38,578 nt of DNA from Candidatus Rokubacteria bacterium RIFCSPLOWO2_02_FULL_73_56 (GTDB taxonomy: Bacteria; Methylomirabilota; Methylomirabilia; Rokubacteriales; CSP1-6), in the NCBI GenBank assembly GCA_001788495.1, contig MGCF01000048.1:1-38578 (forward strand), written 5' to 3'. This document shows positions 29,077-33,679 of the stretch, in pieces. The position numbers were made by a program, and so were the translations under genes. Positions within the stretch are counted from its first letter, which is position 1. Every line of letters starts with the position of its first letter. The notes beneath the pieces are model-generated. The model ran no database searches. It worked only from the letters and a program-made list of their open reading frames with translations, and had not been told where the DNA came from.

Positions 29077-29083
29077 TATGATA
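29077..29083. promoter_or_regulatory. Symmetric TATGATA: shared -10 for divergent methyltransferase and citrate synthase genes
   Basis: Plus strand TATGAT, minus strand TATCAT, from the same seven bases. The plus transcript would reach citrate synthase (ATG 29126, with GAGGGA at 29115-29120), the minus one the methyltransferase. The in-frame ATG at 29078 lies inside it and is rejected as a start. Both genes here have leaders, unlike the leaderless group. Confidence 0.45.
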
Positions 29084-29125
29084 AAAGCAAACCCGGCCGT
29101 CACACCATCGCGGCGAGGGAAGCCC

Positions 29126-30256
29126 ATGAGCGGCGAGCACAAGGGGGGTCTCGAGGACGTCGTCGTCTCGACGTCGGACGTCTGCTTCATCGACGGCGAC
29201 GAAGGCCGCCTGGTCTACCGCGGCTACGACGTCAACGAGCTCGTCGAGCACTCGAGCTTCGAGGAGGTCGTCTACCTCCTCTGGCACGGCGGCCTGCCGA
29301 GCCGCAAGGAGCTCGACGCTCACCGGAAGGCGCTCGCGGCCACCGCCAACCGGAAGCTGCCGCCCAAGCTCCTCGGCATCCTGCGCGCGCTGCCGAAGCG
29401 GACGTCGCCGATGGAGGTGCTGCGCACCGGCGTGTCCGCGCTCTCGGCGTTCGACCCCGACGCGGCCGACAACTCGCGGGAGGCCACGCTGCGCAAGTCG
29501 ATCCGGCTGACCGCGCGGCTCCCGACGCTGGTCGCCGCCTGGGAGCGGATCCGCCGCGGCAAGGCGCCGGTGGCGCCGAACCCGCGCCTCGGGCTCGCGG
29601 CGAACTTCCTCGCCACGCTGAGCGGCACCCGGCCGAGCCCGCTCGCCGTGAAGACGTTCGACGTCGGGCTCATCCTGCACGCCGACCACGAGTTCAACGC
29701 CTCGACGTTCGCCGCACGCGTGACCGCCGCGACGATGTCCGACGTGCACTCCGCGATCACCTCCGCGATCGGCGCCCTCAAGGGCCCGCTCCACGGCGGG
29801 GCCAACGAGCAGGTCATGCGCATGGTCGAGCGGATCGGGACGCCCGCGCGGGCCGAGGGCTGGATCCGGCAGGCGCTCGCGGACAAGGCGCGCATCATGG
29901 GCTTCGGTCACCGCGTGTACCGCGTCGAGGATCCGCGCGCCAAGCACCTGCGCCGGCTGGCGACGGAGCTGGGCCGGCAGACCGGCGACACGAGCGACGT
30001 CGAGATCCTCGACATCGTCGCGCGCATCGTCTCCGGCGACAAGCGCCTCTTCCCGAACGTCGACTTCTACTCGGGCGCCGCGTACGCGTCGATGGGCATC
30101 CCGACCGACCAGTTCACGCCGGTCTTCGCCATGAGCCGGGTCGCGGGCTGGACCGCGCACGTCCTGGAGCAGCACGCGAACAACCGGCTGATCCGGCCGC
30201 GCTCGGACTACACGGGGCCGACGCACCTCGCCTACGTCCCGCTCGACCGGCGCTAG
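29126..30256 (+). CDS. gltA: Citrate synthase (or 2-methylcitrate synthase)
   Basis: 376 aa, the normal length for the type I/short citrate synthase of many bacteria. Catalytic motifs are present: LHADHEFNAST, GPLHGGANEQV (His) and MGFGHRVYR (His), plus VDFYSGAAY (Asp). It condenses oxaloacetate with acetyl-CoA (or propionyl-CoA). Short members of this family often accept propionyl-CoA, so methylcitrate synthase cannot be excluded. ATG 29126 is set by GAGGGA and begins a conserved MSGEHKGGLEDVVVSTS. GT2 starts 24 nt after the stop. Confidence 0.92.
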   Translation: MSGEHKGGLEDVVVSTSDVCFIDGDEGRLVYRGYDVNELVEHSSFEEVVYLLWHGGLPSRKELDAHRKALAATANRKLPPKLLGILRALPKRTSPMEVLRTGVSALSAFDPDAADNSREATLRKSIRLTARLPTLVAAWERIRRGKAPVAPNPRLGLAANFLATLSGTRPSPLAVKTFDVGLILHADHEFNASTFAARVTAATMSDVHSAITSAIGALKGPLHGGANEQVMRMVERIGTPARAEGWIRQALADKARIMGFGHRVYRVEDPRAKHLRRLATELGRQTGDTSDVEILDIVARIVSGDKRLFPNVDFYSGAAYASMGIPTDQFTPVFAMSRVAGWTAHVLEQHANNRLIRPRSDYTGPTHLAYVPLDRR

Positions 30257-30280: not shown

Positions 30281-31078
30281 ATGGGCGCGCGAGTCACGGT
30301 GGTGATGGTGGTGTTCGACGGGCTCGCGTTGACCCGCGCGTGCCTCGACAGCCTGCGCGCGACGGCCGAGCCGTTCCGCCTCGCCGTCGTGGACAACGGC
30401 TCGACCGACGGCACCGCCGAGCTCTTCGAGCGCTTCGCGTACCCGTTCCCGCTCGCGTTCGAGCGCCGCCCGGCGGGCGGCTCGGTCATCGCGGCGCTCA
30501 ACCGCGCCTGGCGCCTGGCGGACACCGAGGTCCTCTGTTTCCTGCACAACGACACGGAGGCGGTCGAGCCGCGCTGGCTCGCGCGGCTGCTCGCGGGGCT
30601 CGACGCGCCCGGCGCCGGCCTCGCCGGCCTCTACGGCGCCAAGCGGCTGCGGCGCGACGGCCGCGCCGTCGGCCGGACGATCGTCCACAGCCTCGCCGAG
30701 GGGCCGACCGTGCGCGCGCCGTGGGAGGAGGTGGCCTTCGTGGACTCGGTCTGCATGTGCCTGCCGCGGAGCCTCCTGGAGGACGTCGGCGGCTTCGACG
30801 AGGGCTACGGGTTCTACCACGGGCACGACCGCGACCTCTCGCTCGCCGTCCGCGAGCGGCGGCGGCGCTGCCTCGTCGTCCACGCCCCCTTCGTCCACCG
30901 CGGCGGCGGCACGCGCGCGCGGGACTTCGCGCGCGAGCCCGCACGCGAGCGCGACGACCTCCGGCTGCGCGACGCCGCGCTGGCGCGCTTCGCGGCCAAG
31001 TGGCGCCACCGGCTGCCGTGCGACGTGCGGTCCCCCGGGGCGCGCGTGCGCGAGTGGGTGAAGGCGAGGCTCGGGTGA
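30281..31078 (+). CDS. Family 2 glycosyltransferase
   Basis: 265 aa, GT-A fold. VVDNGSTDGTAELF is the typical nucleotide-sugar motif, LCFLHNDTEA is the DxD-like region, and the C-terminal FDEGYGFYHGHDRDLSLAVRE matches GT2 enzymes of the rhamnosyltransferase kind. No membrane helix, so it would act at the cytoplasmic face. Its stop overlaps the next gene's GTG (31075-31078). It begins a run of four coupled genes (GT2, Gfo/Idh, DapF-like, LOG). Acceptor and donor are unknown. Confidence 0.9.
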   Translation: MGARVTVVMVVFDGLALTRACLDSLRATAEPFRLAVVDNGSTDGTAELFERFAYPFPLAFERRPAGGSVIAALNRAWRLADTEVLCFLHNDTEAVEPRWLARLLAGLDAPGAGLAGLYGAKRLRRDGRAVGRTIVHSLAEGPTVRAPWEEVAFVDSVCMCLPRSLLEDVGGFDEGYGFYHGHDRDLSLAVRERRRRCLVVHAPFVHRGGGTRARDFAREPARERDDLRLRDAALARFAAKWRHRLPCDVRSPGARVREWVKARLG

Positions 31079-32238
31079 GGCCGCTCGGCGTCGGGCTCGT
31101 GGGCGCGCGCTTCGCCGCGGACCTGCACGCGGTCAACTACCGGCCGCTGCGGGGCGCGAAGGTGGAGCTGGCGGCCGTCTGCGCGCGAACGCGCGCCGAC
31201 GCGGAGGCCTTCGCCGCGCGCCACGGCATCCCGCGCGTCTTCACGGACTACCGGGCGCTCGTCGAGGCCCCGGACGTCGAGCTCGTGGACGTCTGCTCGA
31301 CGACCGACACGCACCACGCGATCGCCATCGCCGCGGCCCGCGCCGGCAAGCACGTGATCGTCGAGAAGCCGCTGACCGGCGCGTTCTGCGAGGGGACGGA
31401 GCCGCGGGAGGCGATGCTCGCGCAGGCGCTCGCGAACGCCGACGCCGTCCTCGAGGCCGTGGCGCGGGCCGGCGTGACGCTCTGCTATGCGGAGGACTTC
31501 GTCTACGCGCCGCCCGTCGCGAAGCTCCGGCGGCTCGTGGAGGCGAGCGACGGCGGGATCCTCGAGCTCCGGGCCGAGGAGAGCCACTCGGGCTCGCACG
31601 CCGCGTACGCCGCGCGCTGGCGGACGTCGGGCGGCGGCTCCCTGCTGCGGATGGGCTCGCACCCGGTCGGCGCGGTGCTGCACCTCAAGCACTGGGAGGG
31701 CCGGCGGCGCCACGGCCGGCCGATCCGAGCGCGCGCGGTCACCGCCGAGGTGGCGGGCCTCACGCGGCTGCCGTCGGTCGCGGGGCTGCGCCGGTACATG
31801 TCCACGCGGGCGGAGGACGTCGAGGACTGGGCGGTCGCCGTGATCACGTTCGAGGACGGCACGCTCGCGACGGTCCACTCGAACGACGTCACGCTCGGCG
31901 GCGTGCGCAACGTGGTGACCGCGTACCTCACGAACGCGGTCGTCCACGCGAACATCACCCCCAACACCACCGTCACCGCGTACGCGCCCGACGCCGCCGT
32001 GTGGGGCGACGAGTACATCAGCGAGAAGGTCGAGACGAAGGCCGGCTGGCAGTTTCCGAGCCCCGAGGAGGACTGGATGCGCGGCTACCCCCAGGAGCTG
32101 GAGGACTTCGTCGACGCCGTCCGCGAGCGGCGCGAGCCCCTGTCCGGGGCGCTGCTGGCCCGCGAGGTGGTCGAGGTGATCTACGCGGGCTACCTCTCCG
32201 CGGCGACGGGCCGGCGGATCGAGCTCGCGCGGCCATGA
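31075..32238 (+). CDS. Gfo/Idh/MocA-family NAD(P)-dependent oxidoreductase
   Basis: 387 aa. N-terminal Rossmann domain (GVGLVGARFAADLHAVNY), an IVEKPLTG motif (EKP with catalytic-region Lys), and a C-terminal alpha/beta domain with LRMGSHPVGAVLHLKHWEG. The family oxidises or reduces sugars, inositols and amino-sugars. GTG start overlaps the GT2 stop and its own stop overlaps the DapF-like start (ATGA, 32235-32238). The position next to a glycosyltransferase suggests sugar modification. No substrate can be assigned. Confidence 0.9.
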   Translation: MRPLGVGLVGARFAADLHAVNYRPLRGAKVELAAVCARTRADAEAFAARHGIPRVFTDYRALVEAPDVELVDVCSTTDTHHAIAIAAARAGKHVIVEKPLTGAFCEGTEPREAMLAQALANADAVLEAVARAGVTLCYAEDFVYAPPVAKLRRLVEASDGGILELRAEESHSGSHAAYAARWRTSGGGSLLRMGSHPVGAVLHLKHWEGRRRHGRPIRARAVTAEVAGLTRLPSVAGLRRYMSTRAEDVEDWAVAVITFEDGTLATVHSNDVTLGGVRNVVTAYLTNAVVHANITPNTTVTAYAPDAAVWGDEYISEKVETKAGWQFPSPEEDWMRGYPQELEDFVDAVRERREPLSGALLAREVVEVIYAGYLSAATGRRIELARP

Positions 32239-33098
32239 TCCCCTTCGCGAAAGGGCACGGCCTCGGCAACGACTACATCGTGCTGCGCGAGGCGGATCTG
32301 TCCGGGCCTCTGTCCACGCCGGCGATCGTGAGGATCTGCGACCGCAACCGGGGCGTCGGCTCCGACGGGATCCTGCTGCTCGTGCGGAGCGCGCGTGCGG
32401 ACTTCGGGCTCCGCATCTTCAACCCCGACGGGAGCGAGGCGGAGAAGTCCGGCAACGGCCTCCGGATCTTCGCGAAGTACCTCTGGGACCACGGCCACAC
32501 GAAGACGGCGACCTTTACGGTGGACACCAAGGGGGGCGTCGTCGAGTGCCGGTGCCACGTCCACGACGGCCGCGTCGGCTTCGTCACCGTGGAGATGGGC
32601 CGGGCGACGTTCCGCGCGCCGGAGATCCCGATGAGCGGCGCCGACCGGGAGGTCGTCGGCGTCCCGCTCCAGCTCGCCGACGGCACCGCGCTCTCGGTGA
32701 CGGCGGTCTCGGTGGGGAACCCCCACTGTGTCGTGTTCGTGGACCGGCTCGACGAGGCGGAGTGCCGCCGGCTCGGCCCGCTCGTGGAGCGCCACCCGGC
32801 GTTCCCCAACCGGACCAACGTCCAGTTCGCGCGCGTGCACGCGCGCGACGCGCTCGACATCCTCATCTGGGAGCGCGGCGCCGGGTACACGCTGGCGTCG
32901 GGCTCCTCGTCCTGCGCCGCGGCGGCGGCGGCGGTCCGGAACGGCCTGTGCGACCACGGCCGCGTCCGCGTCCGCATGCCGGGCGGCGAGCTCGTCATCG
33001 AGGTCCGCCCCGACTGGTCGCTCCGCCTCGCGGGGCCCGTCGAGGAGGTCTACCGCGGGACGCTCTCGGCGGAGTTCGTCGCGGCGCACCTGGCGTGA
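32235..33098 (+). CDS. DapF-superfamily protein with both catalytic cysteines replaced by serine
   Basis: 287 aa, normal DapF length. The fold signatures are clear: GHGLGNDYIVL, GSDGILLL, RIFNPDGSEAE, VGNPHCVVFV, and ERGAGYTLASGSSSCAA. In DapF the proton-transferring residues are Cys in CGNGLRC and ACGTGACA. Here they are Ser72 (KSGNGLRIF, codon TCC 32448-32450) and Ser222 (ASGSSSCA, codon TCG 32898-32900). So it is unlikely to racemise diaminopimelate by the standard two-cysteine route. It may be an isomerase of another substrate, a dehydratase-like relative or inactive. Start ATG overlaps the previous stop; its stop overlaps the LOG start. The genes around it are not lysine-synthesis genes. 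Confidence 0.9.
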   Translation: MIPFAKGHGLGNDYIVLREADLSGPLSTPAIVRICDRNRGVGSDGILLLVRSARADFGLRIFNPDGSEAEKSGNGLRIFAKYLWDHGHTKTATFTVDTKGGVVECRCHVHDGRVGFVTVEMGRATFRAPEIPMSGADREVVGVPLQLADGTALSVTAVSVGNPHCVVFVDRLDEAECRRLGPLVERHPAFPNRTNVQFARVHARDALDILIWERGAGYTLASGSSSCAAAAAAVRNGLCDHGRVRVRMPGGELVIEVRPDWSLRLAGPVEEVYRGTLSAEFVAAHLA

Positions 33099-33679
33099 GG
33101 CGCGTCTGCGTCTTCGCGGGCTCCTCGGCCGGCGCGCGGCCCACGTACGCCGCCGCGGCGCGCGCGCTCGGCGCGGCGCTCTGCCGGCGCGGGCTCGGCG
33201 TCGTGTACGGCGGCGGCTCGGTCGGGCTGATGGGGGTGCTGGCCGACGCGATGCTCGCCGGCGGCGGCGAGGTGATCGGTGTGATCCCCGACGGGCTGGC
33301 GACGCGCGAGCTCGCGCACCCGGGCGTCACCGAGATGCGCGTCGTCGGCTCCATGCACGAGCGCAAGGCCACGATGGCCGCGCTCGCCGACGCGTTCGTC
33401 GCGCTGCCGGGCGGGCTCGGCACGCTCGAGGAGACGCTCGAGATCCTCACGTGGGCGCAGCTCGGGATCCACGACAAGCCGATCGGCGCGCTCGACGTGG
33501 AGGGCTACTGGAACGGCCTCCAGCGCCTGCTCGCGCACGCGGTCGAGGAGGGCTTCGTGCGCCCCGAGCACGCCGCGCTCCTGCTCTTCGGCTCGGCGCC
33601 CGACGAGCTGCTGGACCGCCTCGCGGCGTGGCGCCCGCCGGGCTTCCGGCGCGCCTGGCTCGGTCCGGCTCAGACCTGA
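33095..33679 (+). CDS. LOG-family phosphoribohydrolase
   Basis: 194 aa. The LOG/TIGR00730 motif PGGLGTLEETLE is intact, with CVFAGSSAGARP at the start, YGGGSVGLMGVLADAML and GSMHERKATMA. Members split adenosine-type nucleotides (cytokinin riboside 5'-monophosphate or other NMPs) into base and ribose-5-phosphate. GTG start overlaps the DapF-like stop (GTGA). It closes the coupled GT2-Gfo/Idh-DapF-like-LOG set, which suggests a nucleotide or sugar-linked pathway, but this link is inference. It converges with a membrane protein gene across a repeat-rich gap. Confidence 0.92.
   Translation: MRRVCVFAGSSAGARPTYAAAARALGAALCRRGLGVVYGGGSVGLMGVLADAMLAGGGEVIGVIPDGLATRELAHPGVTEMRVVGSMHERKATMAALADAFVALPGGLGTLEETLEILTWAQLGIHDKPIGALDVEGYWNGLQRLLAHAVEEGFVRPEHAALLLFGSAPDELLDRLAAWRPPGFRRAWLGPAQT

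Follow-up and report, generated by a model that had tools for sequence, protein, structure and literature searches.

The question raised by this locus is whether a protein can serve as diaminopimelate (DAP) epimerase when both of its catalytic cysteines are replaced by serine. The window, which is the whole stretch of 38,578 nucleotides analysed here from Candidatus Rokubacteria bacterium RIFCSPLOWO2_02_FULL_73_56 (contig MGCF01000048.1), encodes such a DapF homologue, a protein of 287 amino acids with an ATG start (positions 32235 to 33098, forward strand). We refer to it as the Ser/Ser type and to the usual enzyme as the Cys/Cys type. In our judgement it is probably a working DAP epimerase that converts the LL-DAP made by DapL to meso-DAP for MurE and LysA, and a member of a single widespread Ser/Ser clade that has displaced the Cys/Cys enzyme in many lineages, with Ser72 and Ser222 most likely acting as the two bases.

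Catalytic positions and predicted fold

The protein scores 240.6 bits against TIGR00652 (cut-off 114.65) and 194.6 bits against PF01678 (cut-off 34.7). Aligned with the DapF of Haemophilus influenzae, which served as the numbering reference, Ser72 (codon TCC, 32448-32450) falls on Cys73 and Ser222 (TCG, 32898-32900) on Cys217, and the Cys73/Cys217 pair is thus absent. Ser72 is preceded by Lys71 (AAG, 32445-32447; the pair spans 32445-32450), which stands in place of the Met, Gln or Asn of Cys-type DapFs, and Ser222 is followed three residues later by Ser225 (TCG, 32907-32909), a glycine in the Cys type. Glu213 and Arg214 (32871-32876) correspond to Glu208 and Arg209 of H. influenzae DapF, which bind the distal end of DAP (ligand roles from PMC12039745). 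The first-pass annotation of this DNA had read serine codons at both catalytic cysteines and had found the structural motifs of DapF kept. Both observations hold, as the codons read directly agree with the alignment and all other DapF motifs are present.

Both serines occur in 47 of 47 distinct Methylomirabilota sequences of the Ser/Ser type, collected without requiring serine, and the ratio of nonsynonymous to synonymous substitution rates (dN/dS) of the window gene against six relatives is 0.15-0.22, which rules out both an error in the sequence and decay of the gene. The Ser72 codon is TCN in 36 and AGY in 11 of the Methylomirabilota rows, serine being held across both codon families. We also considered, and rejected, that a catalytic cysteine had moved nearby. 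A Cys five positions past Ser222 is also common in canonical DapFs, and 41 of 154 Ser/Ser rows have Ser in its place.

An AlphaFold2 model built from a 62-row alignment has a predicted local distance difference test (pLDDT) score of 96.9. In this model Ser72 lies directly before helix 73-85 and Ser222 directly before helix 223-235, a predicted placement that is the catalytic geometry of DapF. The best matches in the PDB are DapFs, with template modelling (TM) scores of 0.8-0.9 and solved relatives 35-39% identical. A match to PhzF (TM 0.69-0.70, root mean square deviation above 5 Å, 15-18% identity) is far below these and does not make the protein a PhzF.

The Ser/Ser clade and its distribution

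Of 95 genomes of the phylum searched with PF01678, 83 contain a DapF gene, and nearly all of these have just one. The genes that were read out carry EKSGNG...ASG[ST]S in families f1-f7 and MCGNG in families f8-f10. In one f5 genome (G063) the Ser/Ser gene is accompanied by a divergent Cys gene. Another genome (G054) has two Ser/Ser dapF genes, on contigs C36 and C193, one 92% and the other 75% identical to the window gene, which suggests a contaminating contig in the bin.

A wider set of 84,980 species genomes was scanned with a pattern that describes the Lys-Ser motif and allows only A or T as the last base of the Ser codon, yielding at least 118 loci. All of the loci listed are DapF homologues, and the second site is serine wherever it can be read, only the first site having been selected for. 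The Ser/Ser form is present in at least 15 phyla, many of the source records being metagenome bins in which single phylum labels may be wrong. The loci come from Verrucomicrobiota, Nitrospirota, Bacteroidota, Aquificota, Cyanobacteriota, Bacillota, Pseudomonadota, Myxococcota, Chloroflexota, Dictyoglomota, Armatimonadota and others. In a Burkholderiales bin (G111) a degenerate dapF lies about 4 kb from the intact copy (L272, 6300-7500); it is a second Ser/Ser copy and not a decaying Cys dapF.

The Nitrospirota provide a sample not conditioned on serine. When 118 genomes of this phylum were searched with the window protein the scores were clearly bimodal, and the 90 matches read were 39 Ser/Ser, 50 Cys/Cys and 1 Ser/Cys, indicating that the two catalytic sites change together. 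Lysine precedes the first serine in every Ser/Ser row and in no Cys/Cys row. A natural DapF homologue with Ser at the first site (EFSGNG) and Cys at the second (LACGTG) occurs in one Nitrospirota genome (L360, G203), on a different, divergent branch.

In a tree of 81 Ser/Ser and 24 Cys/Cys proteins the Ser/Ser proteins form one side of a single branch with a support of 100/100, recovered in all 200 bootstrap trees, the stem measuring 0.87 changes per site; most Ser/Ser rows from outside the phylum came from the scan for Lys-Ser, which could have missed a mixed member. Lys-Ser stands at the first site in 154 of 154 Ser/Ser rows, with a lysine that the search demanded of the pattern-found rows and left free in the Methylomirabilota and Nitrospirota sets, and the second site is likewise Ser in all 154. 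The position of Ser225 is Ser in 152 of 154 rows and Gly in 24 of 24 Cys/Cys rows. Using H. influenzae numbering, the DAP ligands Asn11, Asn64, Asn157, Asn190, Glu208 and Arg209, and also His159, are each kept in at least 153 of the 154 rows; the ligand roles are those described for the Anabaena DapF structure (PMC12039745). The changes specific to the clade are concentrated near the catalytic residues: Met/Gln72 to Lys, Cys79 to Ile, Ala65 to Pro, Phe13 to Tyr, Gly220 to Ser (the 152 of 154 rows above) and usually Glu213 to an aromatic residue.

Place in the lysine and meso-DAP pathway

The source genome is a 94% complete draft from the Methylomirabilota (NC10/Rokubacteria group), and the window gene is its only PF01678 gene. 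A second, canonical dapF was found neither here nor in most relatives. LysA, DapA, DapB and DapL (TIGR03542) are encoded on contig C123, and C135 encodes a MurE bearing DNPR, the motif of enzymes that add meso-DAP. DapL produces LL-DAP, while MurE and LysA require meso-DAP. The window gene is the sole candidate for the step between them in a genome with DapA, DapB, DapL, LysA and MurE, and would take the place of DapF in the pathway. The first-pass annotation had reasoned that its proposal of another function would fall if this were the only dapF of a lysine prototroph and acted on DAP. The gene is indeed the only dapF in a genome that encodes the lysine route, and activity on DAP is for its part what we propose as probable.

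Two other ways of making meso-DAP were considered. Ddh is the route that would bypass the epimerase; no ddh (TIGR01921) was detected in the source genome, and the model scored above its cut-off in 1 of 51 genomes, mostly Ser/Ser-only ones. An Alr-like, pyridoxal phosphate (PLP) dependent DapF2 was rejected as the epimerase of this genome, as a search with PF01168 gave only one modest match (75.7 bits) and LysA, with no strong Alr or DapF2 candidate. It should be noted that the same search showed no clear alanine racemase in the source genome, the 75.7-bit match being probably of the YggS type. This may reflect a gap in the draft or another route to D-alanine.

Gene order in relatives points the same way as the single copy. 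Families f8-f10, which are Cys/Cys, have their genes in the order lysA-dapF-dapA-dapB, with dapL next where the contig continues. In the Ser/Ser families f1 and f5-f7 it is lysA-dapA-dapB, with lysA and dapA abutting or overlapping and no room for dapF; dapL then follows in f5-f7. The Ser/Ser dapF of the Methylomirabilota sits elsewhere. Because the lysA-dapA slot is closed and the Ser/Ser gene lies outside it, the Ser/Ser enzyme appears to have taken over from the Cys/Cys one in this phylum. As for dapL itself, the window's own family (L268, L092) has a TIGR03542-type DapL, about 60% identical to that of Prolixibacteraceae, while sister families (L261-L267) keep a TIGR03540-like DapL in the lysA-dapA-dapB operon; one genome (G035) has both types.

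In Bacteroidota (Prolixibacteraceae and relatives) the Ser/Ser dapF often adjoins lysA, dapL (TIGR03542 type) or both. In 50 genomes of diverse phyla with a Ser/Ser gene, no other kind of DapF was detected in 34, among them cultured Maribellus and Sunxiuqinia strains and several Nitrospira and Hydrogenothermaceae bins.

The neighbours of the window gene are citrate synthase II (29078-30256), a family-2 glycosyltransferase (GT2, 30281-31078), a GFO/IDH/MocA oxidoreductase directly upstream of dapF (31075-32238) and a LOG/TIGR00730 protein whose Pfam name is 'possible lysine decarboxylase' (33095-33679, overlapping the dapF stop by 4 bases), all on the forward strand. They are not lysine genes, as had been noted before. 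Citrate synthase is kept as a neighbour within the window's taxonomic family and part of its order, GT2 only within the family. We considered and rejected a dedicated pathway of these genes with dapF. Since the arrangement is kept only inside the family and is mostly lost in sister families, we judge it coincidental, and assign the oxidoreductase no part in the mechanism.

In genomes with two DapFs the Ser/Ser paralogue can lie in unrelated gene clusters. That of Billgrantia lactosivorans (L177, 120-5521) is clustered with a ThiF-type protein, an aminotransferase, a semialdehyde dehydrogenase and a MauE-like membrane protein, and the genome also has a second DapF. In Rouxiella aceris (L150, 608-7998) an operon for an oligopeptide/dipeptide ABC transporter lies upstream of the Ser/Ser dapF, and a Cys-type dapF is also present in the genome.

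Proposed mechanism, alternatives and significance

We suggest that the closed, desolvated two-base mechanism of DapF is most likely retained. Ser72 and Ser222, at the N-terminal ends of the two central helices, would remove and return the alpha-proton. Lys71 beside Ser72 and Ser225 three residues past Ser222 would be clade-specific partners that probably tune the serines. Such supporting changes are to be expected, because serine is the weaker base and Cys-to-Ser mutants of HisR are crippled. In the proline racemase superfamily a hydrogen-bonding residue likewise stands three positions past the catalytic serine (Asn93 after Ser90; the Ser/Thr dehydratase holds its serine in this way), similar to Ser225 after Ser222 (10.7554/eLife.03275).

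Several points weigh against this proposal. As a general base serine is far inferior to cysteine (PMC8142540), and in HisR, a racemase of the DapF fold, Cys-to-Ser mutants lose most of their activity (PMC11602996). Within the proline racemase superfamily, a Ser/Thr pair is associated with dehydration and not with epimerisation (10.7554/eLife.03275). The source genome is a draft. Finally, 16 of the 50 Ser/Ser genomes have a further DapF gene, most of those read being Cys/Cys, and a side function of some Ser/Ser members in these genomes is possible. On the other side, a Ser93/Cys pair in a homologous fold works as a 4-hydroxyproline epimerase (10.7554/eLife.03275).

The alternative that survives best accepts a DAP epimerase and lets Lys71 or another group move the proton on one face. 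We regard this as possible and rather unlikely. Lys71 is found in every Ser/Ser row, the unconditioned samples included, and lysine is a stronger base; the Cys-type DapF has no basic residue near its cysteines (PMC12039745). Against it, Ser72 and Ser222 occupy the ends of the two helices, which in DapF are directed towards the alpha-carbon.

It is less likely than DAP epimerisation, and in our view improbable, that the protein has another reaction or substrate, as a racemase or as a beta-eliminating enzyme or dehydratase on another amino acid, with meso-DAP coming from an unrecognised, non-homologous epimerase. The chemistry of serine (PMC8142540) and the Ser/Thr dehydratases of the proline racemase superfamily (eLife.03275) would suit such an enzyme, a non-homologous DapF2 of PLP type has been proposed in Staphylococcus (PMC9026213), and Cyanobacteria, Pseudomonas, Rouxiella and Billgrantia have Ser/Ser paralogues in addition to another DapF, some of them in other gene clusters. 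However, this explanation supposes that an additional epimerase has escaped notice in many phyla, in each case where the Cys dapF was lost, and the source genome has no strong Alr or DapF2 candidate. The first-pass annotation had held a new substrate or reaction to be likely. This is not supported, as the DAP-contacting residues are all kept, the rest of the meso-DAP and lysine pathway is present and Ddh was not found; the loss of the Cys gene from its lys slot in Ser/Ser relatives and the Ser/Ser dapF beside lysA and dapL in Bacteroidota also speak against it.

That the protein is an inactive DapF relative with a structural or regulatory role is very improbable: both catalytic cysteines are gone and, going by the titles of PDB entries 6d13 and 6vck, E. 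coli DapF was crystallised as a partner of RppH, so that a DapF can act non-catalytically, but the dN/dS of 0.15-0.22 and the invariant substrate-binding residues are unlike relaxed selection, and the gene is single in genomes with the rest of the route and shows coordinated substitutions round both serines.

We compared the window protein with the known systems closest to it. With DapF (EC 5.1.1.7; TIGR00652, PF01678) it shares the fold, length, DAP-binding residues, His159/Glu208 and pathway context, and it scores far above the cut-off of the hidden Markov model; it differs in both catalytic residues, in Lys71, Ser225, a Tyr after HGLGND, GSDG, NPDG and RI after SGNG, and in forming its own clade. 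The Ser/Cys 4-hydroxyproline 2-epimerase has one serine where the window protein has two, acts on another substrate and is about 16% identical in the fold search. Trans-3-hydroxyproline dehydratase, with a Ser/Thr pair, also lacks cysteine in the pair, but carries out a one-base dehydration of another substrate (eLife.03275). The racemases HisR, CntK and DcsC have the DapF fold and two-base logic and act on other substrates, HisR and CntK with two cysteines. The C73S and C217S forms of H. influenzae DapF (PDB 2q9h, 2q9j) are engineered single mutants, whereas the proteins described here naturally have both serines and accompanying changes. The proposed DapF2 would perform the same step with an unrelated fold and cofactor (PMC9026213). 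In the open-licence literature, subscription journals not being covered, we came across no description of a naturally occurring Ser/Ser DapF. So far as found the clade is thus unreported, and its members, as probable DAP epimerases, call into question that two cysteines are indispensable.

The two cysteines of Corynebacterium glutamicum DapF form an inactivating disulfide (PMC5296763), and resistance to oxidation is a possible advantage of the serine pair. We see evenly balanced grounds for a broader proposal, namely a family of DAP epimerases free of the cysteine pair in at least 15 phyla, which would transfer protons by two serines in Lys71-Ser72 and Ser222-Ser225 pairs, would be insensitive to thiol reagents, oxidation and cysteine-alkylating aziridino-DAP inhibitors, and would have replaced the Cys enzyme in whole lineages.

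The textbook account of cofactor-free racemases is that a thiolate/thiol pair takes a proton of pKa about 29, cysteine being favoured as a better base than serine. A Ser/Ser clade that is the sole recognisable DapF in many genomes makes this account directly testable and offers ready-made pairs for comparison. Annotation pipelines label the Ser/Ser proteins DapF without noting the altered catalytic residues, which is a warning. DapF is also an antibacterial target, and covalent aziridine inhibitors attack its cysteines; one would expect such compounds to have no effect on the Ser/Ser clade.
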